Part shown: piece after piece, positions 669 to 64,000 of the stretch | How positions within the stretch are numbered: the stretch's first letter is position 1 | Layout of the letters: each line of letters opens with the position of its first letter | NCBI GenBank assembly: GCA_015134335.1 | Contig: CP043975.1 | Coordinates: 20,350 to 84,349 of the forward strand | Length of the DNA: 64,000 bases | Direction: 5' to 3' | Source of the DNA: Candidatus Stammera capleta | GTDB lineage: Bacteria; Pseudomonadota; Gammaproteobacteria; Enterobacterales; Enterobacteriaceae | Program-made: the position numbers and the translations under genes | Notes under the pieces: generated by a model | Seen by the model: only the letters and a program-made list of their open reading frames with translations | Told to the model about the DNA's origin: nothing | The model's database searches: none

Positions 669-2018
669 TTATAATATAAATTTACTTAAATCTTCATTTA
701 CTACTAAATGATTTAGTTTTAATTTAACATATTTACTATCTATTTTAATTAATTTATTATAATAATCTGTAGCATTATAAGATATATCTTCCATTAATTT
801 TTCTAATACAGTATGTAATCTTCTTGCACCTATATTTTCAGAATTTTCATTTATTGTTCATGCTATTTTAGCTATTTTTTTTATTCCCCCATTAGTAAAT
901 TGAATATTAACATTTTCTACATTTAATAAATATTTATATTGTGAAGTTATAGATACATTAGGCTCAACTAATATTTTACAAAAATCCTTAACACTTAATG
1001 AACTTAGTTTAACCCTAATAGGAAACCTACCTTGTAATTCAGGTATTAAATCAGAAGGACTACATAACTGAAAAGACCCTGAGGCTATAAATAATATAAA
1101 ATCTGTTTTTACAACACCATATTTAGTAGATACAGTACAACCTTCAACTAAAGGTAATAAATCTCTTTGAACTCCCTCTCTTGAAACTCCTGAATCTAAT
1201 ATTTGTCCTCTTTTACAAATTTTATCAATTTCATCAATAAAAACTATTCCTTGTTGTTCAACTAAATCTATAGCACGCTTTTTAATATCATCTAAATTAA
1301 TTAATTTAGCAGATTCCTCGTCAATTAATAATTTTATTGCTTGTTTAATTTTTAATTTACGTAATTTTTTTTTTTGACCACTTAAATTTTGAAATATTGA
1401 TTGTAATTGACTAGTCATTTCTTCCATACCAGGTGGTGACATTATTTCTATACCTAAAGTTGGAATAGATATATTAATTTCAATATCTTTGTCATCAAAA
1501 ATTTTATTACGTAATTTACACAATAAATTTTTTTTTATATATATATGTGAATTAATATCACTTAATTCTTTATCATTAAATTCAGATTTAATAAATTTTG
1601 AATCATTTATTAATAAATCTAAAATACGGTTTTCTGCTAAAATTTTAGCTTTATTATAATTATCCTTTACCACCTGCATCTTTATCATCTTAACAGCATA
1701 ATCAGTTAAATCTCTTATTATAGAATCTACTTCTTTACCTACATATCCTACTTCAGTAAATTTAGTTGCTTCTACCTTTATAAAAGGAGAATTACTTAAT
1801 TTAGCCAAACGACGAGCTATTTCTGTTTTACCTACTCCTGTTGTTCCAATCATTAAAATATTTTTAGGAGTAATTTCACTTTTTAAATCATCATTAAGCT
1901 GCATTCTTCTCCATCTATTACGTAAAGCAATTGATACAGCTCTTTTAGCATCATTTTGACTAATAATAAATTTATCTAATTCATTAACTATTTCTTGAGG
2001 CGTCATTTCATTATACAT
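669..2018 (-). CDS. hslU: ATP-dependent protease ATPase subunit HslU
   Basis: HslU is the AAA+ unfoldase that feeds substrates to the HslV peptidase in the cytoplasmic HslUV protease. The 449-residue product aligns end to end with the enterobacterial protein (443 aa). It begins [11 protein letters not shown] and has a P-loop at 58-65 and the pore loop GYVG at 91-94. The I-domain follows, then the Walker B region [10 protein letters not shown], the [12 protein letters not shown] segment, and the C-terminal EDLSRFIL-like tail that activates HslV. The P-loop reads GTTGVGKT where the family has GPTGVGKT. An in-frame TGA at 858-860 encodes the Trp of the AEAAWQVNE-like segment; without recoding the gene would look truncated. 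It starts 33 bp after hslV on the same strand. Confidence 0.97.
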
Positions 2019-2051
2019 AATATGTTTTCTCTATAATAAAAATATTATTTT

Positions 2052-2585
2052 TTATTCTTTTATACATAATAATTTTTCTATTGTAAAACTATGATTAGTA
2101 TAAACACATAAATCTGCAGCTATACATAAAGATTTTTTTACTATATTAAATGAATCTAAATTAGTATTTTCTATTAATGCTTTTGCGGCAGAAAAAGCAT
2201 AATTACCTCCACTACCAATTGCAATCAAATCATTTTCAGGTTGTATAACATCTCCATTACCAGTAATTATTAAAGAACTATTAATATCAACAATAGCTAA
2301 TAATGCTTCTAATTTCCTTAAAATTTTATCTGTTCTTCAATCTTTAGCTAATTCTACAGCTGATTTTATTATATGACCCTGATATATTTCTAATTTTTTT
2401 TCAAATAATTCAAATAAAGTAAACGCATCAGCAGTACTACCGGCAAAACCAGCTATAACTTTATCATTATATAATTTCCTAACTTTTTTAACATTTCCTT
2501 TCATAATAGTATTATTAAATGTAGCTTGACCATCACCACCCATCACTACTAAATTTTTAATTCTTACACTTAAAATAGTTGTCAC
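2052..2585 (-). CDS. hslV: ATP-dependent protease peptidase subunit HslV
   Basis: HslV is the N-terminal-nucleophile threonine peptidase of HslUV, a double hexamer of proteasome fold. The 177-residue product starts MTTILSVR, so Thr2 becomes the catalytic N-terminal Thr after Met removal. The GDGQAT and [16 protein letters not shown] segments are intact. The Trp of the AKDWRTD motif is encoded by TGA (2334-2336). Beyond it the frame continues through [13 protein letters not shown] to a normal C-terminus ([10 protein letters not shown]). The family length is about 176. It lies 19 bp downstream of rpoH and 33 bp upstream of hslU. Confidence 0.97.
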
Positions 2586-2604
2586 TTATTTACCTATATA
2601 TAAA

Positions 2605-3477
2605 TTAATAATTTTTAATTAAAAATCTTAACTTTTTAATCGCATTTTTTTCTAATTGACGAATACGCTCAGAAGATATTTTATAATATTCTGCTAACTT
2701 TTTTAAAGTCACTTTTTTCTTTCGCAATCATCTAGATTTAATAATATGTTTACTTCTATTATCTAAATTAATAAAAGCTAATTTTAACTTTTTCAAAATA
2801 TATTTTTTTCAATTTAAATATTCTATATTATCAGTAAAATTAGAATTTTTATCCATCAAATTATCATTTAATAAATCTTTATTATAAAATAAATTACCAT
2901 CAAAATATTTATTAATATTATTAACACCCAAATTAATATCATTATAAAACATTCTTGATTCCATTTTATAAATATCCTTTTTAGATACTGATAATTTTTT
3001 AGAAATTAAATTAATTTCTTTATATTTTAATCAACCTATTTTTTTTTTTAACTTTCTTAAATTAAAAAACAACTTACGTTGTGATTTAGTTGTAGCAATT
3101 TTTACTATACGTAAATTTTTTAATATAAATTCATGTATTTCACATTTAATTCAGTAAATAGCAAAAGATATTATTCTTACTTTATATAAAGGATTAAATT
3201 TTTTAATTGCTTTTATTAATCCTATGTTACCTTCTTGAATTAAATCAGATATTGCTATACCATAACCTAAATAATTTTTTGCAACATTTAATACAAATTT
3301 TAAATTAAATATAATTAATTTTTTAATACTATTTATATTATTATAATAATAAAAATCATTAATTAATTTATATTCTTGTTCATAAGATAATATAGGTAAA
3401 GAATTAATAAAATAAATATAAGTATTTAAATTTCCTACACAAAATATATTAAAATTAATATTAGTATTAACTGACAT
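2605..3477 (-). CDS. rpoH: heat-shock sigma factor sigma-32 (RpoH)
   Basis: This is the alternative sigma factor that directs RNA polymerase to heat-shock promoters. The 290-residue product (E. coli 284) shows region 2 ([17 protein letters not shown], then [18 protein letters not shown]), the sigma-32-specific RpoH box [12 protein letters not shown], and a region 4 helix-turn-helix at the C-terminus ([19 protein letters not shown]). Trp codons after 3151 are TGA. Typical clients (hslVU, dnaKJ, clpPX, lon) are all in this window. Here rpoH sits directly upstream of hslVU, whereas in E. coli it follows ftsYEX, so the arrangement is a rearrangement. Confidence 0.95.
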
Positions 3478-3688
3478 ATAAATCTCTTTATCACATAAAA
3501 TTAATATTAAAATATTAATAAAAAATTATATTAATATATAATATTTATTATTTAATAACAATATATTAATATTATAAATATATATTAATTATATATATTT
3601 AATAAATAAATTATATACTTAATAATATTATAATTAATATTTATATATAAATAAATATATTTAATTACAAAATAAATTTTATACAATA
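3478..3688. promoter_or_regulatory. divergent rpoH / rsmD spacer, presumed promoters
   Basis: A 211-bp spacer separates the divergent genes rpoH and rsmD and must hold both start regions. TATAAT-like and TATATT-like strings are everywhere, so no individual -10 or -35 element can be singled out. No gene or structured RNA is seen. Confidence 0.35.
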
Positions 3689-4228
3689 ATGAAAATTATA
3701 ACAGGAAATTATAAAGGACAAAAACTTAAATATATAAAAAATAAATTACTAAAACCTACTACTTCAATAATAAAAAAAATATTATTTAGTTGATTATTAC
3801 CATTTATTAAAAACACAAAATGTTTAGATTGTTTTGCTGGAACAGGTGCATTAAGTTTAGAAGCAATTTCTAACAAAGCAAAATATGTAACTTTAATAGA
3901 AAAAAATTATAAAATATTTAATATAATAAAAAAAAATTTTTATAAAATTAATATAAATAAATATAATTTATTAAATAAAAATTGTATAACATTTTTAAAA
4001 AAAAAAAAAATAACTAATTTTGATATTATTTTTTTAGATCCACCTTTTTACATTATAAATTTAAATAAAATAATACAAATAATAAATAATTATAATATTA
4101 TTAATATTAATGGATTAATATATATTGAAACCTTTTTATATAATAATATTATTATACCAAAATCATGATATTTATATAAACATAAAATAAAACATAATAT
4201 TAAATTTTTTTTATATATAAAAAATTAA
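3689..4228 (+). CDS. rsmD: 16S rRNA (guanine-966-N2)-methyltransferase RsmD
   Basis: This SAM-dependent enzyme methylates G966 of 16S rRNA in the small subunit. The 179-residue product (E. coli 198) has the SAM-binding segment DCFAGTGALSLEA and the catalytic motif DIIFLDPPF typical of RsmD. Two in-frame TGA codons encode Trp. The gene contains a 14-base A run at 3997-4010 coding for consecutive lysines, an obvious slippage-prone site, but the frame is intact as sequenced. It is divergent from rpoH and followed by a 430-bp spacer. Confidence 0.92.
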
Positions 4229-4658
4229 ATAAAAATTTTAAAAAAATTATTTAAAAAATAAAATCCTATTTTTATAATATAACTATTTTATGTAATATTA
4301 ATATTATTTATACTAATATTTGTATAATTAATAAATATTTTTATTAATAAATAAATAACATTAATATATATATATAATATTTAATTAATATTTTTAAATT
4401 AATTAAATAATCTAAATATTTTAAATTTAATTAAAATTAAATTATTTCTCAAATATATTTTCTATTATTATATTTAATTTTTAAATCATTTTTAAAATTA
4501 TTTATAATATTTAAAATAATTAATAACATAAAATAAAAAAAACAAACATTTATTAGTTTAAAGTTAAACATGTATATACATACATAATATTTAAATTATA
4601 AATATAATATCTATTATAATATTATATTTAATAATTATTTTAAAATAAATAATAAAAC
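4229..4658. other. 430-bp A+T-rich spacer between rsmD and dnaB
   Basis: This is the longest gene-free stretch between recognisable genes. I find no open frame with family resemblance and no tRNA or rRNA motif. It is mostly A/T runs with small inverted repeats, for example ATGTATATACAT near 4569-4582, shortly upstream of dnaB. It may be an eroded gene plus the dnaB promoter; nothing in the sequence identifies the former occupant. Confidence 0.45.
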
Positions 4659-6035: not shown

Positions 6036-6107
6036 ATTATTTAAATATAAAATTTATTTAAATAAAATTATGATAAAATATTATTTATTAAAACAATTAA
6101 ATTTAAT

Positions 6108-6581
6108 ATGGCTAGTAAAGGAATAAACAAAGTAATATTAATAGGTAATTTAGGTCAAAATCCAGAAATTAGATATATGTCTAATGGAAACACAATAACA
6201 AATTTAAATATAGCTACATCTGAAATATGAAAAGATAAAAAAACAGGTATTAATAAAGAAAAAACAGAATGACATAGAGTTATTTTATTTGGTAAACTAG
6301 CTGAAATAGCAGCTGAATACTTAAAAAAAGGATCTCAAGTTTATATAGAAGGATCATTACAAACAAGAAAATGACAAGATAAATCTGGACAAGAAAAATA
6401 TATTACAGAAATAATAGTTAATATGAATGGTACTATGCAAATGTTGGGTAATAAAAATAATAACAAATCATTAAACAAAAAAAACACAAATATAAAAAAA
6501 AATAAAAAAACTAATAAAATTAAAATTAATGAAGACAAATCAGACGATTTATCAATAGATTTTGATGATATACCATTTTAA
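6108..6581 (+). CDS. ssb: single-stranded DNA-binding protein
   Basis: SSB coats single-stranded DNA during replication and repair. The 157-residue product has an OB fold from the start ([24 protein letters not shown]). Its conserved DNA-stacking Trp residues (motifs [20 protein letters not shown]) are all encoded by TGA, the first at 6228-6230. A lysine/asparagine-rich linker follows. The acidic C-terminal tip DDIPF, which binds partner proteins, is intact, so the interaction hub function is probably kept. Confidence 0.97.
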
Positions 6582-6649
6582 ATTAAAAAAAAAATATTAA
6601 TATATTTATAAATAAAATTTTATATATATATAAACAATTTTAAAATATT

Positions 6650-14294: not shown

Positions 14295-16679
14295 ATGAAC
14301 AATCAAAATAATAATATTAAAATTAAAACAAAAAAAGATATAACTACTAAAAAAAATAAAAAAAAAATACCTATTTTACCACTTAGAGACATAGTAATAT
14401 ATCCTAATACAATAATTCCTTTATTTATAGGTCGAAAAAGATCTATTTCATGCTTAAAATTAGCTATGAAAAAAAATAAAAAAATAATGTTAGTGGCTCA
14501 AAAACAAAGTATGGTAGAAAATCCATCTATCAATGATTTGTATAAAATAGGTACTATATCTATAATATTACAAATTATAAAATTACCTGATGGTACAATT
14601 AAAATTTTAGTAGAAGGAATTCAAAGAGCAAAAATATTAAATATTAAAGAAAAAAATAAATGTTTTATAGCAAAAATAAAAAAAATAAAAAATTATATAA
14701 AAAATCACAAAAAACATAATATATTAATTAAAGCAATTCTTAATCAATTCAAAAATTACATTAAATTAAATAAAAAAATACCTTATGAAATAATAAATTC
14801 ATTAAATAATATTAATGATTCAACAAAATTATCTGATACTATAGCATCTCACCTACCACTAAAATTAGTAGAAAAACAACATATTTTAGAACTTAAAAAT
14901 ATAAATAAAAAACTAAAATATTTAATGATAATGATAGAATCAGAAATTAATATTCTCAAACTTGAAAAAAAAATTAGAAACAGAGTTAAAAAACAAATGA
15001 AAAAAAGTCAAAGAGAATATTATTTAAATGAACAAATAAAAGCTATCCAAAAAGAACTAAACTATAATAATGAAATAACAAACGAATATGATTTAATACA
15101 AAAAAAAATAATAATTTCTAAATTACCTAAATATGCTAAAGAAAAAATTGAATCTGAATTACAAAAATTTAAAATGATGCAACCAATGTCTGCAGAAGCA
15201 ACTGTATCTAGAACATATATAGATTGAGTTTTACAAATACCTTGACATAAAAAAAGCAGAATAAAAAAAAATTTAACAAATGCTCAAAAAATTTTAGATA
15301 TAGATCATTATGGATTAACTCATGTTAAAGAAAGAATTTTAGAATATTTAGCAGTACAACATAGATCAAATAAGATTAAAGGTCCAATTTTATGCTTTAT
15401 AGGACCTCCCGGAGTAGGTAAAACATCTTTAGGTAAATCAATTTCAAAAGCAACTGGTCGTAAATATATCAAAATATCACTAGGAGGAATAAGAGATGAA
15501 GCAGAAATCAGAGGTCATAGAAGAACTTATATAGGAGCTATGCCAGGTAAAATTATACAACAAATTGTTAAAACAAAAGTTACAAATCCTTTATTTCTAT
15601 TAGATGAAATAGATAAAATTTCAAATGATTTAAGAGGAGACCCTGCTTCAGCATTATTAGAAGTTTTAGATCCAGAACAAAACACTTGTTTTAATGATAA
15701 TTATATAGAATTAGATTATGATTTATCTAATATAATGTTTGTAGCAACTGCAAATTCTATTAACAATATTCCTTATCCTCTATTAGATAGAATGGAAGTA
15801 ATAAAAATTGTAGGATATACAGAAAATGAAAAAATAAATATTGCTCAAAAATATCTAATACCAAAACAAATAACAAATAATCAACTTAAAAAAAATGAAA
15901 TTAATATTAATAATAAATGTATTATTAAAATTATTAGATATTATACTAAAGAATATGGAGTAAGAAGCTTAGAAAGAGAAATTTCAAAAATATGCAGAAA
16001 ATCAGTTAAAAAAATAATTCTAAATCCTAAAAACAATATCCCAATTTATATTAATAAAAATAATATAAAAAAATATCTAGGTATATATAAATATGATTTT
16101 GGAAAAGCAAAAAAAAAATATAAAATAGGACAAGTAACAGGATTAGCATGAACAGAATTAGGAGGAGAATTATTAATTATAGAATCTAGAGCAGTAAATG
16201 GAAAAGGAAAATTAATTTACACAGGTTCCTTAGGAAAAGTTATGCAAGAATCTATACAAGCTGCTTTAACTGTTGTAAGATCTCTAACAAAACAATTAAA
16301 TATTAATAAAAATTTTTATTTTAAAAAAGATATACACGTACATATTCCAGAAGGTGCTACTCCAAAAGATGGACCAAGCGCTGGTATAGCAATTTTTACT
16401 TCTTTAGTTTCTACACTAACTAAAAATCCTATAAAATCCTATATAGCTATGACAGGAGAAATAACATTAAATGGTGAAATTTTAGCTATTGGGGGACTAA
16501 AAGAAAAATTATTAGCCGCTTCAAGAGGAGGAATTAAAAAGGTTATTATTCCATATGATAACAAAAAAGATATAAAAGAAATCCCAAATAATATAAAAAA
16601 AAACTTACAAATATATACTTTTTATAATATTAAACAAATATTAAAAATATCTTTAACAAAAAAAAATATATTTAAATAA
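14295..16679 (+). CDS. lon: ATP-dependent protease La (Lon)
   Basis: Lon degrades misfolded and regulatory proteins. The 794-residue product (E. coli 784) has the N-terminal LON domain ([21 protein letters not shown]), Walker A GPPGVGKT at 370-377, Walker B LLDEIDKI and the Ser-Lys dyad: Ser695 in PKDGPSAG and Lys738 in IGGLKEK. In-frame TGA codons at 15225-15227 (YIDW), 15243-15245 (IPWHKK) and 16149-16151 (GLAWTELGG) fall on conserved Trp positions. It ends 17 bp from the convergent tRNA-Arg gene. Confidence 0.97.
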
Positions 16680-19176: not shown

Positions 19177-19653
19177 TTGAAATATATTTTAATATTTTTA
19201 AATAAATATATATTTAAATATTATATAAATAATCAAATTCAAAATTTATTTAAACAATTTAATAAAATTAAAAACTATACTATTATAAGTATATTATTAA
19301 TTCAATTAACATTAATAACTATTAGTATAATTATTAATAATTTATTAATATTAATAATATTTAATAAAATTAATAACATTTTTAATATAAAAATAATTAT
19401 TAAAAAAATAATTTTTATTTTTATAACTATATTATTAATTATAATTAATATTATATTATATTCAATAAATAATTTATATAATACCTTTTTAGTATATAAA
19501 AATTATATACATATATTATTAAATCATAATTATATAAAGTTAATAACATATCAACACAATAATGTATATAATAAAAATATACTTAAATTCTTCTATATAT
19601 TTAATTCAATTATATTCTTAATACTTTTATTTTATATTATAAAAATATATTAA
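19177..19653 (+). CDS. putative membrane protein of unknown function
   Basis: An open frame of 158 codons begins at TTG (an in-frame TAA lies 6 bp upstream) and ends in TAA. The product is rich in Ile, Leu, Asn and Tyr. It has two long hydrophobic stretches at about residues 34-62 and 72-97 and a third at the C-terminus (about 138-158), which suggests an inner-membrane protein with a polar loop at 98-137. I do not recognise a family. It lies alone between cysS (divergent) and rnpB (convergent). In A/T-rich DNA hydrophobic frames arise easily, so it may not be real, but its length and its fit between neighbours argue for a gene. Confidence 0.5.
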   Translation: MKYILIFLNKYIFKYYINNQIQNLFKQFNKIKNYTIISILLIQLTLITISIIINNLLILIIFNKINNIFNIKIIIKKIIFIFITILLIIINIILYSINNLYNTFLVYKNYIHILLNHNYIKLITYQHNNVYNKNILKFFYIFNSIIFLILLFYIIKIY

Positions 19654-20131: not shown

Positions 20132-21576
20132 AATATATATGGATTAATAATTTCTTTAAATTTAATTTTAATACTATAACCTGAAAATTTTAAAAATTTA
20201 ATATAAAAATTCATTAAATATTTTTTATGACAATTACTTATATATTTAATTCTTTTTCCATGAATTACAATAGTTAAAGGGGTATAACTACCAATATGGG
20301 CATATTTTAACTTTATTAAATTTGTAAAATTATTATTATAATATAAATTATTTATTGCTAATTTTAATATTTTATTAATTTTAGAAGTTGTAAGACTTAC
20401 TTTAAAAATATTATTAAATCTTCTATAAATTGTTCTAAAAAGCGACAATATAAATTTATTATTTAAATTTAAAGCACATATAAAAAAAATAAATATATTT
20501 TTTAAAAATCCATATTTTTTTTTTAAAAATAACTTTAAATTAAATTTTTCACGATTACTTATTTCTTCGCATTTATTAAAAAACAAAATTACCATTTTAC
20601 CTTTATTTAATAATAATTTAATTAAAGATAAATCATATTTAGATATACTTTTATATATATCAATAACATAAAATACAATATTAAAAAAATTAATCTTTTT
20701 ATAAAATTCTAATAATAATTTTTGTTTTATAAAATATTTCTTATTAATACCTGGTGAATCAGAAATCATAAAATTAATATTATCAAAAATAAAATTATAA
20801 AATAAAAAATTTTTAGTTGTATTTTCATTTTTAGAAACAATAGATCTATATGAACCAATAATATAATTTAAAAAAGTAGATTTACCAACATTACTTTTAC
20901 CTAAAATTATAATTTTAATAATATTAAAAAATTTTATATTAAACCTAGAAAATAATTCATTTTTTTTAATTAATAATTTATTTAATTTAAAAAATTGTAA
21001 ATTTAAACAATTTTTTAATAAAATTTTAAAATATTTAATATTATTTAATTTTATAATATTTTTATTATTAATAATACTACAAATTTTAATCAAAAATTTA
21101 TTTAAATTAAAATTTTTAAATATAGACAAAACTAAAATATTTTTAATATTTAATTTATTAAATTGACATAAAATTATATTTATATTAACTTTTAATAAAT
21201 CTTGTTTATTTAAAATTAATAAAATTTTATTATTATAATTTTTTAATAAACTTTTATATATAAACAAATCATCCTGTAATAAACCTATAGAACAATCAAC
21301 CATAAAACAAATTAAATCAGAATATTTTATATTTAATAAAAATTTATTATATAAATTTTTATAAAATTTCTCATTATTAAATTTTTTTATAAAATTTAAA
21401 TCATAACTAATATTATCTATAAAAATAAAATATTTTTTATTAAAAAAATTAACACAATAATTAAAATCTACTATATTTGTTATATTTTTTAAATAATAAT
21501 TTTTACAATTTAATAATTTATAAAATAAATTAGTTTTTCCAACTCCTTGTCTACCAACTAAAGATATTATATACAT
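20125..21576 (-). CDS. der: ribosome-assembly GTPase Der (EngA)
   Basis: Der is a double-GTPase needed for 50S assembly. The 483-residue product (E. coli 490) has two G domains and a C-terminal KH-like domain (KLKYAHIGSYTPLTIVIHG, then a basic tail). Domain 2 is well kept: GKSNVGKST, DSPGI. Domain 1 is degenerate: its P-loop reads GRQGVGKT rather than GRPNVGKS, and the G3 DTGG reads DNIS, although NKQD is present. Domain 2's G4 reads NKCE. It lies 12 bp downstream of hisS, preserving the enterobacterial hisS-der neighbourhood with the genes between them lost. Confidence 0.93.
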   Translation of the reverse strand: MYIISLVGRQGVGKTNLFYKLLNCKNYYLKNITNIVDFNYCVNFFNKKYFIFIDNISYDLNFIKKFNNEKFYKNLYNKFLLNIKYSDLICFMVDCSIGLLQDDLFIYKSLLKNYNNKILLILNKQDLLKVNINIILCQFNKLNIKNILVLSIFKNFNLNKFLIKICSIINNKNIIKLNNIKYFKILLKNCLNLQFFKLNKLLIKKNELFSRFNIKFFNIIKIIILGKSNVGKSTFLNYIIGSYRSIVSKNENTTKNFLFYNFIFDNINFMISDSPGINKKYFIKQKLLLEFYKKINFFNIVFYVIDIYKSISKYDLSLIKLLLNKGKMVILFFNKCEEISNREKFNLKLFLKKKYGFLKNIFIFFICALNLNNKFILSLFRTIYRRFNNIFKVSLTTSKINKILKLAINNLYYNNNFTNLIKLKYAHIGSYTPLTIVIHGKRIKYISNCHKKYLMNFYIKFLKFSGYSIKIKFKEIINPYILK

Positions 21577-29509: not shown

Positions 29510-32299
29510 ATGAAAAAACATAAATTAAATTATTCAAATAACATTAATTTACCTAATACAAATTTTCCTATGAAAGCAAATTTAACAATAAACGAGCCAA
29601 AAATATTAAAAATGTGGTTAAAAAAAAAAATTTATGATAAATTAAAAACATTAACCAAAAATAATAAAAAATTTATTATTCATGATGGCCCTCCATATGC
29701 CAACGGAAATATACATTTAGGTCACGCACTAAATAAAATATTAAAAGACATAACATTAAAATATAAAATATTCAAACAATATAATATATACTATAAAATA
29801 GGTTGAGATTGTCATGGTTTACCAATAGAATTAAATATTAAAAAAAAATTTACTAGTAAATTAAATTCACTATATAAAATAATAAAATTTAAAAATGCTT
29901 GTTTAAAATATGTAATTAAACAAATAAATTTACAAAAACAACAATTTATAAATTTAGGAATAATTACAAATTGAAAAAATTATTATAATACAATGGATTT
30001 TAAAAATATTGCTTCAACAATTAATATTTTTTCTAAATTTTATAAAAAAAAATTAATTAAAAGAATAAAAAAACCTATTTATTGATGTATAAAATGTAAA
30101 TCATCATTAGCAGAAGCAGAAATTAATTATAATTATACTTTAATAAAAAGTATATATGTAATATTTAATATATCAAATAAAAATAAATTTTTAAAAAAAA
30201 TTAATATTAATAAACTTAAAAATATTAAAAATATTCAACTCATTATATGAACAACCACTCCTTGGAGTATACCAGCAAATAATGCAATTTCAATACATAA
30301 ATATTATAAATATGTACTAATTAAAAATAATAAAAATATTATTATAATAATTAAAAATACCGCTAAACAATTTTGTAAAGAAATAAATATACCATATTAT
30401 AAAATTTTTACTATAAAAGGCCATCACTTAACTAATTATAATACATATCATCCCATTTCAAAAATTAAAATTCCTATTATATTTAATAAATATATTAAAA
30501 AAAATATTGGTACTGGAATTGTTCATTTAGCTTCTCACCATGGATTAGAAGATAACATAATATGTTCTAAATATAATATTAAAGGCCATAATATTATTAA
30601 TAAAAAAGGAAAATTTAATAATTATAAATATATAAAAAATTTATATAAAAAGAAATTACTAAAAGGACAAAAATTAATTATTAAAAAACTTAATAAAAAT
30701 AAAAAAATAATTAATAAAAAAATTATTAATTATAAAATACCATATTGTTGAAGACATAAAAAACCAATTATAATTAGAACAACTTATCAATGATTTATTA
30801 TATTTAATAAAAACAATTTAAAAAAAAAATTATTAAATAATATTAAAAAAATAAAATGAATACCTAAATGAGGGTATAATAAAATAAAAAAATTAATTAA
30901 AAATCGCCCTGATTGATGCATATCACGTCAAAGACATTGAGGAACTCCATTACCATTATTTATACATAAAAAAACTTTTACAACACATCCTAAAACATAT
31001 AAATTATTAAAATATATTTCTAAAAAAATAGAAAAATATGGACCTAACTATTGATTAAAATTAAAAAAAAAAGATATTATTAAAGAATATAAAGATTATA
31101 AAAAAATTTATGATGTATTAGATATTTGATTTGATTCAGGTGCTACCTTATATACTATTTTTAAAAAAAATATTAATAATATTATTACTATTGATACAAT
31201 TTTAGAAGGCCAAGATCAATATAGAGGATGATTTATGTCATTATTAATTATTAATATAATAATTAATAAAAAATTTAAATTCAAAAAAATAATAAGTCAT
31301 GGATTTGTAGTAGATAAAAATAATATAAAAATGTCTAAATCATTAAATAATAATATTAATCCTTTAATTTTAATAAATAAATATGGAGCAGATATTATTA
31401 GATTATGAGTTTCTTCAGTAAAATTTTATAATAATATTAAAATATCTAATGAAATAATTCAACGTAATATAGAAACATATAGAAAAATTAGAAATACTTT
31501 TAAATTTATAATTAATAATTTAAATAAATATAATCCTAAAAAAAATTTTATTAAAATACAAAATTTAATTCAATTAGACCAATGAATAATATATAAACTA
31601 TATAAATATCAAAAAAAAATAATTAAATTATATAATAAATTTAAATATTATAAAATAATTAAAATTATAACATACTTTTGTAACTACTATTTAAGCTCTA
31701 TATATTTTGATATAATTAAAGATAGAAAATATATTATAAAAAGATATACTTATCCAGTATATAGCGCTCAAACAACATTATATATATTGTTAGAAACTAT
31801 GGTTAAATGAATAGCCCCTATATTATCATTTACATCTGAAGAAATATGAAAATATATTCCTAGAAAAAAACCTATATCTATATATTTAGATAATAAATTT
31901 TATTATATTAATTATTTATATATTAATAAAAAATATATTAATATCTGAAAAATATTACTTAAAATAAAATTTAAACTTAATAAAATTATTGATAAATATA
32001 AAAAATTAAATATTATAAAATCTTCATTAGAAATATATGTTAAATTATATTTAAATATTAAATACTATAAAAAAATTATTATAATGAAAAATGAATTAAA
32101 ATATTTTTTCATAATTTCAAAAATAAAAATAAAAAAATTTAAATTAATAAATTTTAAAATAAAATGTAAAAAAATTAATGGTATAAAATGTTTAAGATGT
32201 TGGCATTTTTATAAAAATAATATTAAAAATTTTAATAATTTTTGTTATAGATGTTATATAAATATAAAAAAAAATGGAGAAATAAGAAAATTTATATAA
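29510..32299 (+). CDS. ileS: isoleucyl-tRNA synthetase
   Basis: IleRS charges tRNA-Ile. The 929-residue product (E. coli 938) has the HIGH motif PPYANGNIHLGHALNK, the editing domain with TTPWSIPANNA, LEGQDQYRGWF, the KMSKS motif NIKMSKSLN and a C-terminal zinc finger (CLRCWHFY...CYRCY). Trp is encoded by TGG at three sites (MWLKKK, TPWSIP, RCWHF) and by TGA at many others, for example 29804-29806 in GWDCHG. Under the standard code it would look like a string of pseudogene fragments. It starts the ileS-rsmA-apaH run. Confidence 0.97.
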
Positions 32300-39179: not shown

Positions 39180-40043
39180 TTAAACTTTTAAACTAATTTT
39201 AGCTATTAAACAAAACAAATTTCTAATATTTAAAATCATATTTTTTCTTTCTATATCTGAAAAATAATTTTTACAATCTAACAAATTAAAATAATTAACC
39301 ATTTTTAATGCATTTTCATAAGAAATAATTCACAAAGGATTTTTAAATTTTAACAATCTTAAAGATTCCTCTTCATATTGATTAATACATTTAATTAAAA
39401 ATTTTATATTAGATTTATTAAAAATATATATTGATTTATAATATTCATATTTACTTATAATATCATAATATCTAATTATTTTATTATTACTATCTATATT
39501 TCAAATTAAATCATTTATATATAAAATTTTCTGTAAGTGCATTAACAATCTTTCTACACCATAAGTAATTTCTACTAATATAGGATTACAAATTATATTA
39601 CCCATTTCCTGAAAATATGTAAATTGACTAATTTCTACACCATTCAATCATACTTCTCAACCATAACCATAAGCACCTAAGGTTGAATTTTCTCAATTAT
39701 CTTCTATAAATTTTAATTCATTTTTATTAATATCTATTCCTAAATAAATTAATGAATCTACATATATTTGTTTTATATTTTTTAATGAAGGTTTGTTTAT
39801 TACTTGAAATTGATAATATTGAGACAATTTTATTGATAATAAATTGCCATATTTAGCATCTTTTGCTCTTCTACATAACTGTATATAACTATAAAATATA
39901 TCTTTTTTTTGTATAGCTCCAAAAAAAGTATTAGGATGAAAAGTAGCAGCTCCTACTTCTAAATCTAAAGATTGTATATTAGTACAACCATATTTATTTC
40001 AATACTTAATTAATTTTAATATAATATTTTGAAATGTAATCAT
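39180..40043 (-). CDS. glyQ: glycyl-tRNA synthetase alpha subunit
   Basis: GlyQ carries the class II catalytic core of the heterotetrameric GlyRS. The 287-residue product (E. coli 303) starts [20 protein letters not shown] and keeps [57 protein letters not shown] and EITYGVERL. Every Trp in the invariant DNWE and GWEVW motifs is TGA, so this gene is invisible to standard-code gene finding. It precedes glyS as in enterobacteria. Confidence 0.96.
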
Positions 40044-40484: not shown

Positions 40485-41474
40485 TTACTTTATATTTTTC
40501 TTAGGTGGTCAATTTTTTAATTTCATACCTAATTTTAATCCCTTAGATAATAAAATATTTTTTATTTCATTTAAAGATTTTTTACCTAAATTTGGAGTTT
40601 TAAGTAAATCAGATTCAGATTTTTGAACTAAATCTCCTATATAATTAATTTGTTCAGTCTTTAAACAATTAGCTGATCGTACAGTTAATTCTAAATCATC
40701 TACTGATGATAATAATATAGGATTAAAATCTTTCTTTTTTTTATCTTTTTTATCTGAAACATTCTTTTTTAATTCTATAAATGTTTCTAATTGATTATAT
40801 AATATAGTAGCAGCTTTACGAATTGCTAATTCAGGATCTAAAGTACCATTAGTTTTAATATTAATTATTAATCTATCTAAATCTGTTCTATTATTTACTC
40901 TAGAAGATTCTACTATATAAGAAACATACCTAACAGGAGAAAAAAAAGTATCTAAAAATAATTTACCAATTACTATTTCATCACTAATCTTTAGTTTTCT
41001 ATCATTTGATGATATATATCCTACTCCTAGTTCAACTTTAAGTTTCATATTAATTACAATATCTTCATGTGTAATATTACAAATTATATGATCTTTATTA
41101 TATACAAATATATTCTCATCATATTTAATATCATAAGCATATACTGGACCTATACCCTTTTTTTTTAAATATATAATTTCATAATTATTATCATTATTTA
41201 TTCTAATAGAAATATTTTTAATATTTAATAAAATTTCATTTAAATCTTCTAATAATCCTTTTTTAACAGTATATTCATGAAATATATTATCAATTTCAAC
41301 TTCAGTAATAGCATAACCTGGCATAGATGATAATAAAATTCTTCTTAAAGAATTACCTATTGTATGACCAAATCCTCTTTCTAAAGGTTCTAAAATAATA
41401 TTAGACTCCATTAATGAAATTTTTTTAATATCTATAATTTTAGGTTTTAAAAATTTATAAGGAAAATTAAACAT
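40485..41474 (-). CDS. rpoA: RNA polymerase alpha subunit
   Basis: Alpha dimerises to nucleate RNA polymerase and its C-terminal domain contacts promoters and activators. The 329-residue product is the E. coli length. The N-terminal domain has [23 protein letters not shown] and the C-terminal domain has [18 protein letters not shown] and [12 protein letters not shown]. The final segment LKNWPPKK uses TGA (40509-40511) for a Trp that is invariant in enterobacteria, one of the cleanest proofs of recoding here. A Lys-rich linker joins the domains. Confidence 0.99.
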
Positions 41475-46866: not shown

Positions 46867-46920
46867 ATTTTTTCCTAATATTTCATTATTAATTTTTATA
46901 TAAATAAATTAATTTAATTA

Positions 46921-47223
46921 TCAACTAGATTTTTTTATTCCAGGTATATAACCCTTAGCAGCAAATTCTCTAAATTTAATTCGACTTAAACCAAATTTCC
47001 TTATATAAGAATGAGGTCTTCCTGTTAAATTACATCTATTTCTACTACGAATATAACTAGAATCTCGAGGTAATAATTGTAATTTTACAATTGCATTCCA
47101 TCTTTCTATATTAGAAGTATTAATATTAGAAATAATTTTTTTTAATAATATTCTTTTTTTATAAAATTTATTTATTAAAAATTTTCTTTTTTTTTGTCGT
47201 ATTATAATTGATTTTTTAGTCAT
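46921..47223 (-). CDS. rpsN: 30S ribosomal protein S14
   Basis: S14 lies in the 30S head. The 100-residue product (E. coli 101) is the long, zinc-free form, with [53 protein letters not shown] at its end. Its one Trp (IERWNAI) is the rare TGG codon. Confidence 0.98.
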
Positions 47224-48755: not shown

Positions 48756-48942
48756 TTTTCTTAATTTTTATAATAGTATTTATAATAGCTATTTTTCTTT
48801 TATATTTTTTTATTAAATGAGTTTTATTAAATTCACGTGACATTAATTTTAATTTATACTGAAAAAGTTTTTTATACAAAATAGTTAATTTAGAATTTAA
48901 ATCTAAAACACTTAAATTAATATATTTATTTAATATTTTCAT
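48724..48942 (-). CDS. rpmC: 50S ribosomal protein L29
   Basis: L29 lies beside the exit tunnel and is a docking site for SRP. The 72-residue helical hairpin (E. coli 63) aligns by [24 protein letters not shown] and the [18 protein letters not shown] segment. It is extended by about nine residues at the C-terminus, running 32 bp into rpsQ. Its start overlaps the end of rplP by 13 bp. Confidence 0.92.
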
Positions 48943-49355
48943 AAAAACTCTTCTTTTTCTATAAAAACAGTTTTAACACATAATTTAGCACCAGCTAACT
49001 TAAAAGCTTTTTTAGCCTTATATTTACTTATACCACTTACTTCATATAAAACTTTACCTGGCTTTACAACAGCAACTCAATATTCTACATTACCTTTACC
49101 TTTTCCCATACGAACTTCTAAAGGCTTTTTAGTAATAGGTTTGTCGGGAAAAATTCTTATTCACATATGACCATTGTTTTTAACAAATCTAGTTATAACT
49201 TTACGAGCTGATTCAATTTGTCTAGCTGTTATACTTCCTCTAGATATAGCTTTTAATCCAAAATCCCCAAAATTTACTTTACAATCTCGTGAATAACCTC
49301 TATTACGTCCTTTTTGTAATTTTCTAAATTTAGTTCTTTTAGGTTGTAATAACAT
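48930..49355 (-). CDS. rplP: 50S ribosomal protein L16
   Basis: L16 organises the A site of the 50S subunit. The 141-residue product (E. coli 136) has [65 protein letters not shown] and FKLAGAKL. The TGAs in GHMW and YWVA are Trp. At the 3' end the frame reads through an ATGA junction (TGA 48939-48941) and stops at TAA 13 bp inside rpmC, adding Trp-Lys-Tyr. Confidence 0.97.
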
Positions 49356-53503: not shown

Positions 53504-54688
53504 CTATTTTAATATTTTACTTACAATTCCTGCTCCTACTGTTCTTCCACCTTCTCTAATAGCAAATCTTAATCCTTCATCCATAGCTATAGGACTAAAC
53601 AACTTAACCAACATTTTAGTATTATCACCTGGCATAACCATCTCTATACCTTCAGGCAATTTTATTGTACCAGTAACATCAGTAGTTCTAAAATAGAATT
53701 GAGGTCTATAACCATTTAAAAATGGAGTATGGCGGCCTCCTTCTTCTTTAGATAAAACATATACTTTTGCTTCAAATTTAGTATGAGGGTTAATATATCC
53801 TGGTTTAGATAATACTTGACCTCTTTCAATATCCTCTCTCTTAATACCTCTTAATAAAATACCTACATTCTCTCCTGCTCTACCTTCATCTAAAATTTTT
53901 CTAAACATTTCTACACCAGTACATATAGATTTTTGAGTACGCCTAATACCCACTATTTCAACTTCTTCTCCTACTTTTATAATACCTTTTTCTACCCTTC
54001 CAGTTACTACTGTACCTCTTCCAGAAATAGAAAAAATATCTTCTATAGGTAATAAAAATGGTTTATCAATATCACGAATTGGATCTGGTATATAATTATC
54101 TAAAACATCAGCTAATTCAAAAATTTTATTTTTTCATATATCTATACCTTCTAATGCTTTTAAAGCAGAACCACGAATTATAGGAGTATCATCACCAGGA
54201 AATTCATATTGAGTTAAAATATCTCTAATTTCCATTTCTACTAATTCTAATAATTCCAAATCATCAACCATATCACATTTATTTAAAAAAACAACAATAT
54301 AAGGCACCCCTACTTGTCTTGCTAATAAAATATGTTCTCTTGTTTGAGGCATAGGACCATCAGTAGCTGCAACAACTAAAACTGCTCCATCCATTTGAGC
54401 AGCACCAGTAATCATGTTTTTAATATAATCAGCATGTCCTGGGCAATCTACATGAGCATAATGTCTTTTTAAAGTATCATATTCAACATGAGAAGTATTA
54501 ATAGTTATACCTCTCTCTTTTTCTTCAGGAGCATTATCAATTTGATAAAATGCTCTAGCTTCTCCACCATATTTAGTAGCCAACACTGTAGTAATAGCAG
54601 ATGTTAATGTAGTTTTGCCATGGTCTACATGACCTATAGTACCTACATTTAAATGTATTTTAGATCGTTCAAATTTTTTCTTAGACAT
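53504..54688 (-). CDS. tuf: elongation factor Tu
   Basis: EF-Tu delivers aminoacyl-tRNA to the ribosome. The product is 394 residues, as in E. coli. G motifs are intact: [39 protein letters not shown] and SAL. The Trp of LEGIDIWKNK is TGA (54131-54133), where E. coli has the EWE Trp. Domains 2 and 3 are conserved up to the final [15 protein letters not shown] modest AAAGGT site precedes the ATG. Only one tuf is seen here. Confidence 0.99.
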
Positions 54689-56871: not shown

Positions 56872-57345
56872 TTATCATCTATAATGCGCAAAGGCTTTAT
56901 TAGCTTCTGCGATTCTATGTACTTCATCGCGTTTTTTTACTGATAAACCTTTATTGTTTACAGCCTCAAATAATTCATCAGCTAATTTTAAAAACATTTT
57001 TTTACAAGATCTTTGTCTTGCAGATAATATAATTCATCTAATTGCTAATGTATTACCCCTTGTTGGTCTTACTTCAACAGGAATTTGATAAGTAGTCCCT
57101 CCAACTCTTCTCGTTTTAATTTCTACAATAGGTTTAACATTATTTATAGCAGTTTCTAATAATTCAATTTTATTTTTATTTAATTTATTTTCTATAATAT
57201 TTAACGCTTTATATAATATTTTTTCTGCAATTGATTTTTTACCACTTAACATTAATAAATTTACAAATTTAGTTACTAATTCAGAATTATATATTATATC
57301 AGGTATAATATTTCTTATATTAGTAGACAAATTACGACGTGACAT
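56872..57345 (-). CDS. rpsG: 30S ribosomal protein S7
   Basis: S7 nucleates the 30S head and contacts E-site tRNA. The 157-residue product (E. coli 156-179 by strain) has the [24 protein letters not shown] segment and ends [11 protein letters not shown]. Both Trp are TGA; the last one (56875-56877) is followed directly by TAA, as in the enterobacterial AFAHYRW. It lies 39 bp upstream of fusA. Confidence 0.98.
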
Positions 57346-57980: not shown

Positions 57981-58010
57981 TTAGTAATTTTATTATTACT
58001 TTTTAAATTA

Positions 58011-58094: not shown

Positions 58095-58146
58095 TATTTA
58101 ATATAATATTTTTAATTTTTATATTAATACATATTTTTTAATAAAA

Positions 58147-58581: not shown

Positions 58582-58589
58582 TTTAAAAT

Positions 58590-59516: not shown

Positions 59517-60272
59517 TGTATCATTAAACAATGTATACAATATTATACCATTTGCAACAGAAACATTAAAAGAATTAATTGTTTTAATTGGAATCTTTAA
59601 TAATAAATCACATTGATTTTTAATATTATTTTTTATACCTTTGTTTTCAGACCCTAATAATATTACAATATTTGTATATTTTTTAATAAATTTATTATTA
59701 TATAAGTAATTATGTGACTTTAAACAAGTTCCTATTATATAAAAATCATATAACTTAAGAACAGATAAAATATTTAATATATTATTACATTCTAAAATTA
59801 AAATTTTATATATTGCACCTGAAGAAGTTTTATGTACCAAATTATTATAAATAGAAACTGAATATTTTTTACTTATTATAATAATATTAATTCCTATACC
59901 TACCGCTGTCCTAATACATGAACCTAAATTATATGGATTATTAATACGATCTAAAATTAAAATTTTTATAGATTTTTTATTTTTTTTTTGACTTTTTAAA
60001 TAATCTATAAAATTTTTATATTTAAAATTAAACATATATGATCTAGTATATGCAATAATTCCCTGATGGTTATATTTATAAGAAATAAAATTAAAATAAT
60101 TTTTATTAACAAAATTTATTTTAATAAAAAATTTTTTAGCTATATTTTTTATAATATTAAATCTTATATCTTTCCTATCTTTTAACATACATATAAATTT
60201 AATATAATTAAATTTATATATAATTAAATTTTTAATTACATTAATACCATAAAATATATTATTTTGTTTCAT
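59511..60272 (-). CDS. rlmB: 23S rRNA (guanosine-2'-O)-methyltransferase RlmB
   Basis: RlmB, a SpoU-family knotted methyltransferase, methylates Gm2251 in the P loop of 23S rRNA. The 253-residue product (E. coli 243) starts with FYGINVIKNLI and has HQGIIA, ILDRINNPYNLGSCIRTA, KTSSGAIY, LLGSENKGI and a C-terminal NSFNVSVANGIILY, the three SpoU motifs. It is the last gene of the mutL-miaA-hflX-rlmB run, 3 bp after hflX. Confidence 0.94.
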   Translation of the reverse strand: MKQNNIFYGINVIKNLIIYKFNYIKFICMLKDRKDIRFNIIKNIAKKFFIKINFVNKNYFNFISYKYNHQGIIAYTRSYMFNFKYKNFIDYLKSQKKNKKSIKILILDRINNPYNLGSCIRTAVGIGINIIIISKKYSVSIYNNLVHKTSSGAIYKILILECNNILNILSVLKLYDFYIIGTCLKSHNYLYNNKFIKKYTNIVILLGSENKGIKNNIKNQCDLLLKIPIKTINSFNVSVANGIILYTLFNDTL

Positions 60273-60275
60273 ATT

Positions 60276-61565
60276 TTATTTTTTTAAACTTTCATACATA
60301 AAAGGATATTTTTTTAAAAATCTAGTTACATCTATTTTATTAAATTTAATTTTTAAATAAAATAATTTTCCGTCTTTACTTTTTTCACTTATTATAAAAT
60401 TATTTCTATATAAAAAATTTTTAATTATTAAATACTTATCTATACTTATATTAATATTATATATAGAAAAATTATGTAAAAAAAATTTATTTATATACTT
60501 AAAAATATATTTAATTCCCAAATTATATTTAGCTGAAATAAAAATTTTATAATTTTTATTAAATATTACTTTAGGTTTTAAAGTTTTAATTTTATCAATT
60601 TTATTCATAATTTGTATTACAGGTATATATTTATTTAAAATTTTTTCTAAAATTTTATTAACTATTATAATATATTTATTAAAATATATATCAGATATAT
60701 CTACAACATGTAAAATTAAATTTGAATTATTTATTTCACTTAATGTGGATTCAAAAGCTTTTAAAATAATAGAAGGAATGTCCTTAATAAAACCAATAGT
60801 ATCTAATATTAATAAATTTCTATTTACTAAATTAGAAATTTTAACTTTTCTTATATAAGTTTCTAATGTACTAAATATAAATTGTTTAGGTTCAAAATTA
60901 GAATTTGTTAATATATTAAATAATGTTGATTTTCCAGAATTTGTATATCCTACTAATGATACTGTATAAATATTAGATAATTTTCTTAATTTTTGACTTT
61001 TATCTTTTTGTGATTTTATTTTATATAATTTTTTGTTTATTAATTCAATATTCTTTTTTATTATTCTTTTATCTAATTCTATCTGTTTTTCACCAGGACC
61101 TGATATACTTTTTAACCCCCCCCTTTGTCTTTCTAAATGACTTCATCTTTTTACTAATCTAGTACTTAAATATTTTAAATAAGCTAATTTTACTTGTAAT
61201 TTTCCAAAATAAGTATTAGCTCGTTCTTTAAAAATATTTAAAATAATTTTAGTTCGATCTAAAATATTACATTTTAAATATTTAATTAAATTACGTTCTT
61301 GATTAATTTTAATAGTTTTATTTAAAACTAAAGTAAATAATTTATATTTATTTATTAATAATTTAAACTTACATAAATTACCAATTTTAAAATAATACTT
61401 ACTACTCGGATTTTTAATAATACATTTAATAAATTTCTTAATTACTAAATTATAAGAACTAATTAATTTTTGAAATTCATTAATATCTATATCATTATTA
61501 CTATTATAGTCTTTAATATATATTACTAAACATTTAGTATTAATATTAAAATTATTATTTATCAT
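60276..61565 (-). CDS. hflX: ribosome-associated GTPase HflX
   Basis: HflX is a 50S-binding GTPase that splits stalled ribosomes, notably under heat stress. The 429-residue product (E. coli 426) has an N-terminal domain (GKLQVKLAYLKYLSTRLVKRWSHLERQRGGLKSISGPGEKQIE), P-loop VGYTNSGKSTL, G3 LDTIGFI, G4 NKID and a C-terminal tail. Several Trp are TGA. I chose the ATG at 61565 (MINNNF) over 61619 because it matches the E. coli N-terminus length. Confidence 0.95.
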
Positions 61566-61631
61566 AATATAATAATTTTTTAATTTATAAATTAAATAAA
61601 AAAAAAGTTCATAATACAACTAAATATTAAT

Positions 61632-62582
61632 TTAAATAAAATATTTAATATAATTCTTTATTTTATCAAAATAATCTTTTTTATCTCTATAAACAATAAA
61701 ACTTTTTTTATATCATCTTTTTAATCATTTTAATTGTTTTTTAACTAAATATTTTGTAGATTTTATACTATTTTTAATCATATTACAATATGAAATTTTA
61801 AAATCTAAATATAATCACATTTGATAATATCCTATACATTTAATAGATGGACTATTAATATTTAAATCACTTCTATTATATAAACGTAGTACTTCTTTTT
61901 TAAAACCCAATTTTAACATATTATAAAATCTATTTTTTATGCAAATAACATAATTTTGTATATCTTTAAATAAAATAATTATTTTAATAAAATTTAAATT
62001 TAACTTAAATTTTAATTTCTTTTTTAAAAACGAACTTTTATAACCTCCAGAACAAATAAAAATTTCTAAATTACGTATTATTCTATATGTATCATTAAAA
62101 TGTATTTTTAAAGCCACTTTATTATCTAAAGTTTTTAACATATTATATACAAAAAAATTACCATATTGTTTAATTAAAAACTTTATATATTGTCGTACAT
62201 AATTATTAGAACTAGGTAATAACGATAAACCTTCAAATAATATATTATAATACATCATAGTTCCACCTACTAACAAAGGAATTTTTTTTTTTACATAAAT
62301 TATTTTATATAATATTTTATTAATATCACTAAAAAATTTATTTAATGTATAAATATTTTTAGGATCTAAAATATTTACTAATTTATGTTTAAATAATTTT
62401 AAATTATTAATAGATGGTTTATCAGTACCTATATCCATAAATTTATATATTAAAGCAGAATCAATACTAACAATTTCAAAAGAAAAAAGTTTTATTAATC
62501 TTAATGAAATATCACTTTTACCTACTGTAGTTGGACCTAATAAACAAAAAACATTATTATTATTAAATTTATATAAAAACAT
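61632..62582 (-). CDS. miaA: tRNA dimethylallyltransferase MiaA
   Basis: MiaA prenylates A37 of UNN-decoding tRNAs. The product is 316 residues, as in E. coli. It has P-loop GPTTVGKSD, SIDSALIYKFMDIGTDKP and LVGGTMMYYNILFEGLS, then PSIKCIGYYQMW, the family's GY(R)Q-W motif. The C-terminal Trp codons are TGA. This modification acts on tRNA-Trp, Cys, Leu(UAA), Phe, Tyr and Ser, which suits a genome that reads UGA as Trp. Confidence 0.95.
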
Positions 62583-62591
62583 AATATATAT

Positions 62592-64000
62592 TTATTTATT
62601 TTTACTAAATTTCTTTATATAAGAAATTAAATTATATAAATCAATAATTTTAAAAAAATTTTTATCAAATTTTATAAATTTAATAATTTTACAAAAATTA
62701 GTAATTAAAATTATAGAAGTATTTGTATTTAAAACTTTATTTAAAAATATAAAATTCATAAATCAATAAATTATTTTATTATATAAATTCTTTTGATTAA
62801 TATTTTTATTAATAAATAATATTAAATTAAATAAAAATTTTTTTAAATTAATATTTATTAAATACATAGGTATTTTATAAATTTTTAATATATTTGAATT
62901 AATATATATAATGTAAATACCTAATTTATACAAAAATTTTATAAAATCAAAATTATTATTAATAATTAAATTAATATTAATTTCCAATGATATATTATTT
63001 AATCAAATAAAATTAAGTAATTTATTTTTAAAAACAAAATAATTAATATAATAAAAAATATAATTTATATTTGTTAATATTACTTTTTTTTTTTTAATAG
63101 TAATTAAATATTTATGTGATATAAATGTAATAATTTTACCAAAATGTATTAAAAAATACTGTAAATAATTTTTTTTATTAACTTCTTTTAAATATAAATT
63201 AATATTATTATTTTTACATTTTTTTCTGTTTTTATAAATAAATAATTTTTCAATATTACTAAAAATATTCTTCCTTTTAAAATAAAGTAATAGATTTGAA
63301 TAAATACTTTTATATAATATATTAATATTTTTAAAATCTATTAAAGTTTTAATATTATTAATATTTATATTAATATATTTATAATCTATAAAAAAATATA
63401 ATATATAAGAAATATTAAAAAATTTTTCTAATAAAAAACCTTTTAAAAATTTATTAAAAATATAAAATAAAATATTTTTACTATCTATTAACCTTTTATT
63501 TAAAAAAATAATTTTAATTTTTGAATTTTTATTAAAATTAATAAAAAAAAATCCATAACATAATCAAAAATCAGTATATAAATTTATATATATATTATTT
63601 TCTATAAACTTATTTCCATATATACTAGAAATAACATTTAATATATTAACTTTTTTACAATTATTTATATATATATATTTTTTATATAGTTTTTTATTAC
63701 TATAAATATAAAAAGAAGTTTTATAATTACAAATAATAAATTTATTTAAAAAATTATTTAATAAATATCATTCTTTATTAATATTATTTAATAATTCTTG
63801 TCTTTTAAATTTAATATTAAAAAATATTTTTTTTAAAAAAACAATAGTACCTAAATTAGAGGGAATAGGTTTAATATTAAATAATACAATATTTTTATAC
63901 AAATAATTATATAAACATCAACCTATTTCAGAACTTATATTTTTAGATATAATTTTAAAATATGACATTATACTAATATAATACAAAGATAAACCTCTAA
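62592..64000 (-). CDS. mutL: DNA mismatch repair protein MutL (5' part beyond window)
   Basis: MutL couples mismatch recognition to repair. About 469 residues are visible; the N-terminus lies beyond the right edge. The frame shows the end of the GHKL ATPase domain: RGLSLYYIS in the place of RGEALASIS, SNLGTIVFLKKIFFNIKFKRQELL for the GTxVxVxxLFxNxPARxKFL motif, and FLNKRLIDSKNILFYIF for the YVNGR segment. A linker and the dimerisation domain ending DLYNLISYIKKF follow. The conserved Glu of GFRGEAL and the NTPAR residues are changed, so ATPase activity is doubtful. Four TGA codons are Trp. It starts the mutL-miaA-hflX run, 9 bp before miaA. Identification rests on pattern and synteny. Confidence 0.8.

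Follow-up and report, generated by a model that had tools for sequence, protein, structure and literature searches.

UGA as a tryptophan codon in Candidatus Stammera capleta and a code change that probably preceded repeated loss of release factor 2

We analyzed the meaning of the codon UGA in a 64,000-nucleotide stretch of the Candidatus Stammera capleta genome (hereafter the window; contig C1 of genome G000, positions 20350–84349), and followed it into the genome as a whole and 11 relatives of the same genus. UGA is a tryptophan (Trp) codon across the window. The best joint explanation, to which we give a probability of about 0.78, is that UGA in Stammera is a plain Trp codon read by a tRNA-Trp with the anticodon CCA, and that the code change came before the repeated loss of release factor 2 (RF2). 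The window's own code is already known; a relative that retains RF2 looks new, and the proposed decoding by a CCA tRNA only is part of that novelty.

Codon evidence in the window

The open reading frames of the window, with TGA translated as X and with TAA and TAG as stops, were aligned with 87 chosen Escherichia coli K-12 proteins, and homologues were found for 66 of them. In these 66 genes, Trp stood opposite 107 of the 114 aligned in-frame TGA codons, where about one would be expected by background (the Trp share was 0.94% of 17,901 aligned codons). The seven misses were opposite Pro (2), Ala, Lys, Gly, Gln, and Asp. TGG was opposite Trp in all eight aligned cases. At the 168 aligned E. coli Trp positions the window had TGA at 107, TGG at 8, and further codons at 53, and TGA thus accounted for 107/115 of the TGA-or-TGG codons opposite Trp. 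At least one TGA lay inside the aligned part of 43 genes, and in 40 of these it was opposite Trp. The terminators of the 66 genes were TAA (62) and TAG (4), with no TGA. The guanine-plus-cytosine (GC) content of the window was 17.6%.

A sequence-only reading of this DNA had claimed that UGA is Trp throughout, and the tabulation of residues against E. coli homologues bears this out. The TGA coordinates that it gave were correct for SSB (6228–6230), RpoA (40509–40511), Lon (15225–15227 and 15243–15245), and RpsG (56875–56877). The one given for EF-Tu (54131–54133) was a codon off, since these letters read AAA and the TGA follows at 54134–54136. It also held that all invariant Trp residues of GlyQ are encoded by TGA, which is right for five of the six E. 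coli Trp positions and wrong for the sixth (TAT). Its statement that no gene requires a TGA stop stands for the 66 homologous genes, with a qualification for rplP, in which a TGA overlapping the start of rpmC looks like a former stop.

The genome and its genus

The genome of the window comprises 267,621 bp in three contigs and carries a completeness label of 93.2%. A GH28 pectinase is encoded on the 4,595-bp contig C2, and a 3,639-bp part of this contig matched plasmid records at ~75–82% identity, nine of nine being Candidatus Stammera capleta. A plasmid with a GH28 pectinase is a mark of Stammera, a bacterium that lives in the gut organs of leaf-eating tortoise beetles. An origin from a reed-beetle (Donacia) symbiont was considered first and dropped, as the GH28 gene and the plasmid matches indicated Stammera. 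The third contig (C3) is 2,541 bp long. G000 belongs to the same genus as genomes G081 and G083, and its small, AT-rich chromosome grouped with Stammera genomes in trees. The small contig of G081 was 100% identical to plasmid CP043992.1 (Stammera of the host Charidotella sexpunctata), and that of G083 was 100% identical to plasmid CP043994.1 (Stammera of Agroiconota sp.); the plasmids nearest to that of G081 were CP144838.1, CP144841.1, CP144835.1, and CP145603.1. The genus sample consisted of 12 genomes, namely G000 and its 11 relatives within G079–G089.

Because the genome belongs to Stammera and the code of Stammera is in print, the basic finding that UGA encodes Trp was already known. It appears for Stammera capleta as a table row in the Codetta paper (PMC8629427, citing Salem et al. 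2017) and also in PMC13092985. The remark of the sequence-only reading that such a change is known in insect symbionts thus extends even to this genus.

The same code was found in all 12 genus genomes within the stretches examined. In 20 reduced relatives from the family, no TGA was opposite Trp, and TGA was the first stop in one to seven genes per 20-kb ribosomal stretch. Two family relatives, G007 and G033, were considered as further cases of code change and rejected: each had a lone aligned TGA (rplP 134 of 136 and secY 436 of 443, in E. coli residues), which reads as an ordinary stop because it falls among the final residues of the protein and is not opposite Trp. G077, a candidate for an odd code because of an rpsC frame with two TAA codons, proved normal, with no stop within the aligned parts of 28 genes.

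Release factors

No prfB, the RF2 gene whose loss the sequence-only reading had suggested looking for, was found above the cut-off in the G000 genome (93.2% complete by label), and RF1 was the sole class-I release factor found. RF1 scored 387.1 bits as PRK00591 and 379.4 bits as prfA, against 235.3 bits as prfB, and it was also the only match to the prfB model TIGR00020, at 231.6 bits against a cut-off of 370. Across the family, prfB scored above the curated cut-off in 58 of the 60 genomes searched, the exceptions being G000 and the 49%-complete G028.

Eleven of the 12 genus genomes had one release-factor match, RF1, and G081 had two. The second protein of G081 is RF2, scoring 341.9 bits as prfB versus 191.3 bits as prfA. 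Its gene is a single open frame of 358 codons that needs no frameshift, and it is flanked by pth on one side and lysS on the other. All 12 genomes share the order lysS-[prfB]-pth-prfA-prmC, with prfB present only in G081; G083, the sister of G081, lacks RF2. The SPF motif, the HTSFSS stretch that follows it, and the GGQ motif are unchanged in G081, and the protein keeps 66 of the 79 positions that are invariant in 21 other RF2s. Over 254 amino acids, G081 RF2 shared 49.6% identity with its E. coli counterpart, a closeness similar to that of G081 RF1 to E. coli RF1 (49.3% over 341 amino acids). The gene contains in-frame TGA at codons 137, 148, and 307, all opposite E. coli Trp, and has no TGG. 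Elsewhere in the family, the SPF motif of RF2 is replaced by NPI in G005, SKF in G007, and NPF in G030 (L205, L207, and L213), though these genomes use TGA stops in the ribosomal stretch.

The codon test for G081 covered 200,000 of 304,737 bp. About 85% (110/129) of its TGA-or-TGG codons opposite E. coli Trp were TGA, including 18 in ileS, six in rpoC, and three in prfB. In 24 core genes, G081 had 22 TGA and six TGG, and the other 11 genomes together had 235 and 26 (Fisher p 0.10). Avoidance of TGA in G081 owing to RF2 was considered and found unsupported (Fisher p 0.10 and 0.14).

tRNA-Trp and the reading of UGA

A tRNA-Trp with the anticodon UCA, which the sequence-only reading had also suggested looking for, did not turn up; such a tRNA is common, though not universal, among bacteria with genetic code 4 (UGA as Trp). 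G000 has 28 tRNA genes, of which one is for Trp, and its anticodon is CCA (Rfam and ARAGORN). No UCA tRNA was found in G000 with Rfam, ARAGORN, or a purpose-built model, the search being extended to an E-value of 10. Two extra weak tRNA matches appeared at E-values up to 10, one within the transfer-messenger RNA identified by ARAGORN and one in a protein-coding frame where ARAGORN placed no tRNA. G081 has 29 tRNAs, with one Trp tRNA (CCA) and none with UCA. A tRNA-Trp covariance model gave one match of 93–99 bits in each of the 12 genus genomes, always with CCA. There was no second Trp-like tRNA in the 12 genomes, the next best match scoring 63 bits, and none of the 14 lower matches that were read had UCA.

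The tRNA-Trp of all 12 Stammera genomes has the pair U11-A24. A24 is the Hirsh substitution (G24A), which enables E. coli tRNA-Trp(CCA) to read UGA (PMC13092985). The pair was compared in 49 other family genomes (the 29 best-matching and 20 picked ones, mostly small genomes, of 74 family relatives with a tRNA-Trp match); 45 of the 49 had U-G or C-G, and four (G006, G007, G033, and G063) had U-A; in G066 the pair lies at a contig edge and was read by eye as U-G. A24 as a strict marker of code change thus failed. The anticodon stem has five standard pairs in all 12 Stammera tRNA-Trp, with 27-43 being G-U in G000 and G082 and A-U in the other 10. The Blastocrithidia-like route of a 4-bp stem (27-43 unpaired, with CCA) was found in none of the 12. 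Outside the genus, the 0.5-Mb genome G063 (L044) has a tRNA-Trp(CCA) with A24 and an unpaired C27-A43, and one TGA stop among 28 genes; by its sequence it is a possible candidate for leaky UGA.

We propose that the CCA tRNA-Trp reads both UGG and UGA, the latter through C-A mispairing at the wobble base. Two things would help it to read UGA, the Hirsh-type A24 and, in most strains, freedom from competition by RF2, and RF1 would terminate genes at UAA or UAG.

A former stop codon in rplP

In the window, the rpmC start codon ATG overlaps an in-frame TGA of rplP (48939–48942), and rplP ends at a TAA three codons further on. The same overlap was found in G089, G079, G086, G082, G081, G088, and G084; the site is TGT in G085, G087, and G080 and TAA in G083. 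An ATGA of this kind terminates rplP in two family relatives, G005 and G033. From its sequence context, the rplP TGA looks like a fossil UGA stop. The tail of rplP from the old stop is longest in G081 (14 codons) among the 12 genomes and contains a second TGA at the site of the TAA of five relatives. TGA codons in the tails of G081 frames that are possibly not genes were left uncounted, and a pairwise test was used instead. Across 33 genes and 4,356 ordered genome pairs, TGA at the partner's stop position occurred only in rplP (13 pairs).

Order of code change and RF2 loss

A tree of the genus was inferred from 25 proteins, with named outgroups drawn from 80 loci (eight in the first tree and six in the second). 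G081 and G083 were paired (support 100) and stood outside the other ten genomes (ultrafast bootstrap 96). Placing G081 alone outside would permit a single RF2 loss, but that topology was rejected (log-likelihood difference 208, approximately unbiased test p ~1e-63).

The 12 genomes suggest that the ancestor of Stammera still encoded RF2 when UGA came to specify Trp, and that two or more losses of RF2 followed within the genus. UGA would have come to encode Trp before RF2 loss, because G081 keeps an open RF2 gene though UGA is mainly Trp there. Given vertical descent, RF2 was probably lost at least twice, because the sister G083 is without RF2 and the single-loss tree was rejected.

Weighing the alternatives

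Several observations weigh against our explanation. All four non-Stammera genomes with A24 use UGA stops, and three of these were confirmed to have RF2, G063 being outside that search. Because these genomes have A24 yet keep UGA stops, A24 is insufficient for the code change and at most permissive. The branches of the tree are long and AT-rich, and the model used for it (LG+F+G4) is site-homogeneous. When outgroups were added, support for the pair G081 + G083 remained at 100, but the outside position of the pair received only 58.8 in the approximate likelihood-ratio test. An alternative rooting, with the pair beside one clade, was not rejected (p 0.051); it would imply three RF2 losses, not fewer, because G081 and G083 stay together there. 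The score of G081 RF2 lies under the NCBI curated cut-off of 370 bits, and the protein departs at 13 of the 79 invariant positions, where each of the 21 other RF2s departs at no more than four. Because of these departures and this score, G081 RF2 may be decaying or changed. Finally, only 110 of the 149 aligned TGA codons of G081 were opposite Trp, the next commonest residue being Ala (six); the share was 92/106 at ≥35% identity and 51/56 at ≥45%.

As to what RF2 does in G081, one reading, to which we give somewhat less than even odds, is a living intermediate: the Stammera of Charidotella sexpunctata would use UGA as its main Trp codon and keep a working RF2. Through the three UGA codons of its own gene, synthesis of this RF2 would both hinge on and be damped by competition of RF2 with the CCA tRNA bearing the Hirsh base, the code change having come before at least two RF2 losses. 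A specialized RF2, retained for UAA and no longer reading UGA, so that UGA is unambiguous Trp, is a serious though doubtful alternative. G081 uses UGA about as freely as its RF2-less relatives, and the 13 changes at otherwise invariant positions would also fit such a protein, but the SPF motif, the HTSFSS stretch, and the GGQ motif are all unchanged.

We regard ambiguous decoding in G081, with RF2 still competing and UGA mostly Trp and sometimes stop, as unlikely. If RF2 competed at UGA, the UGA codons in its own message would damp RF2 synthesis, and the intact recognition motif and the three UGA with zero UGG in the RF2 gene are in keeping with this. The rplP gene of G081 could be read in the same way, with its longest tail, a TGA at the TAA stop of five relatives, and another at the ancestral stop six codons earlier. 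However, the abundant UGA codons in essential genes such as ileS and rpoC would be costly, and rplP was the only one of 33 genes with TGA at a partner's stop. Moreover, since the change from TAA to TGA is synonymous for the overlapping rpmC, it is no proof that UGA still stops in G081 rplP.

That G081 RF2 is a dead relic awaiting deletion, an assembly error, or a late transfer appears quite unlikely. Its absence from 11 of the 12 genomes, the sister included, its long branch, and its departures at invariant positions would be expected of a relic. Against this, 358 codons stand open, for which the chance is ~5e-17 at the gene's own base composition, and the GC content by codon position resembles that of the neighbors lysS and pth. 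The gene lies within a 304,737-bp contig, beside lysS as in E. coli; the protein clusters, weakly (support 50), with RF2s from enterobacterial symbionts; and the gene's own TGA codons fit the code of its host.

A different account of how UGA is read would have C34 of the CCA tRNA-Trp partly altered, as by editing of the anticodon to UCA, with the altered form reading UGA and A24 irrelevant. Anticodon editing of this kind is found in trypanosome mitochondria. The lack of a UCA tRNA gene in G000 and G081 and of a second Trp-like tRNA in the 12 genomes would accord with editing, but simpler paths exist, as a distal tRNA change has been proposed for Hodgkinia (PMC2704378) and CCA-only decoding for Zinderia (PMC13092985), and we consider editing very unlikely. 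That TGA is a true stop and the window full of pseudogenes has practically no probability left, being already refuted by the Trp positions of the TGA codons, the lack of TGA terminators, and the absence of RF2.

Features of the window

Table 1 Coordinates of features discussed in the text (window positions unless marked; + and -, strands).
Feature	Position	Strand	Remark
UGA = Trp stretch	669..64000	.	43/66 E. coli-homologous genes with aligned TGA
ssb	6108..6581	+	TGA at 6228, 6270, 6372 opposite E. coli Trp41, 55, 89
lon	14295..16679	+	TGA at 15225, 15243, 16149 opposite E. coli Trp297, 303, 603
ileS	29510..32299	+	18 TGA, every one opposite E. coli Trp
glyQ	39180..40043	-	TGA at 5/6 E. coli Trp positions, TAT at sixth; extra TGA opposite Pro241
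rpoA	40485..41474	-	TGA 40509-40511 opposite Trp321
rpsN	46918..47223	-	final sense codon TGA 46921-46923 = E. coli S14 C-terminal Trp101, then TAA
rpmC	48724..48942	-	ATG 48940-48942 overlaps rplP TGA
rplP	48930..49355	-	in-frame TGA 48939-48941; frame continues to TAA 48930-48932
tuf (EF-Tu)	53504..54688	-	TGA 54134-54136 opposite Trp185
rpsG	56872..57345	-	final sense codon TGA 56875-56877 (E. coli Trp156), then TAA
miaA	61632..62582	-	basis: homology only
Non-Trp TGA sites			clpX Ala339, cysS Asp174, dnaJ Gln318, mnmA Pro299, glyS Gly93, glyQ Pro241, rplV Lys70
tRNA-Trp(CCA) of G000	C1:133119-133192 (contig)	-	outside window

MiaA modifies A37, beside the anticodon, in tRNAs that read UNN codons, and the product of the putative miaA gene is a possible helper in the reading of UGA. 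The adjoining frame at 62592–63986 (-) stands at the position of E. coli mutL. Its only Pfam match (E-value up to 0.01) was the MutL domain PF01119 (28.1 bits), with no ATPase domain at that threshold, and we annotate it as a long open but eroded MutL. A DsrC/TusE-like protein with one in-frame TGA is encoded at 376–654 (-) (Pfam DsrC, 51.3 bits). The frame at 19177–19653 (+) encodes 158 amino acids, is hydrophobic by eye, and had no Pfam match at E-values up to 0.01. The top-ranked relative of the window's RpsC among named genomes (L106) was Pantoea sp. Brub, a symbiont of Brachystethus rubromaculatus.

Comparison with known systems and significance

For Stammera capleta itself, UGA as Trp (PMC8629427) and a tRNA-Trp(CCA) with a 5-bp stem (PMC13092985) are in print; the available parts of these accounts hold nothing on RF2 across strains, A24, or the lack of a UCA tRNA. 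Hodgkinia cicadicola resembles Stammera in having UGA as Trp, prfA kept, prfB lost, and a tiny symbiont genome (PMC2704378). It differs in its UCA anticodon and high GC content, whereas Stammera has CCA only and the AT-rich window described above; a further difference is that a Stammera strain still encoding RF2 already has UGA as its predominant codon for Trp. In the Hodgkinia model, the tRNA change comes before RF2 loss, the shift in stop-codon use comes after it, and RF2 loss is the driving force (PMC2704378); in contrast, G081 encodes RF2 yet has UGA mainly as Trp, with no clear UGA stop seen.

Zinderia insecticola shares UGA as Trp, a tRNA-Trp(CCA), and the lack of a UCA tRNA (PMC13092985), but it has a 4-bp anticodon stem, unlike the five standard pairs with A24 in Stammera. 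Mycoplasmatota are likewise AT-rich, with UGA as Trp and RF2 lost; every prfB-less genome there has a UGA suppressor tRNA (PMC12421855), whereas none was found in Stammera. The E. coli Hirsh suppressor tRNA-Trp has the same combination of A24 and CCA (PMC13092985), but as a mutant, whereas in Stammera A24 is natural and fixed. A 2015 review (PMC4695839) links changes of UGA in bacteria to RF2 having disappeared. Our literature search, which covered passages of selected papers so that prior notice is possible, found no report of an intact RF2 in a bacterium with UGA as Trp or of RF2 in Stammera.

The analysis addresses the old question of whether RF2 loss or codon capture comes first in changes of UGA to Trp. 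A genus with UGA as Trp in 12 genomes, one of which keeps RF2 and has an RF2-less sister, makes both this order and the activity of RF2 on UGA testable. With no UCA tRNA found, Stammera also offers an uncomplicated natural example of UGA decoding by tRNA-Trp(CCA).

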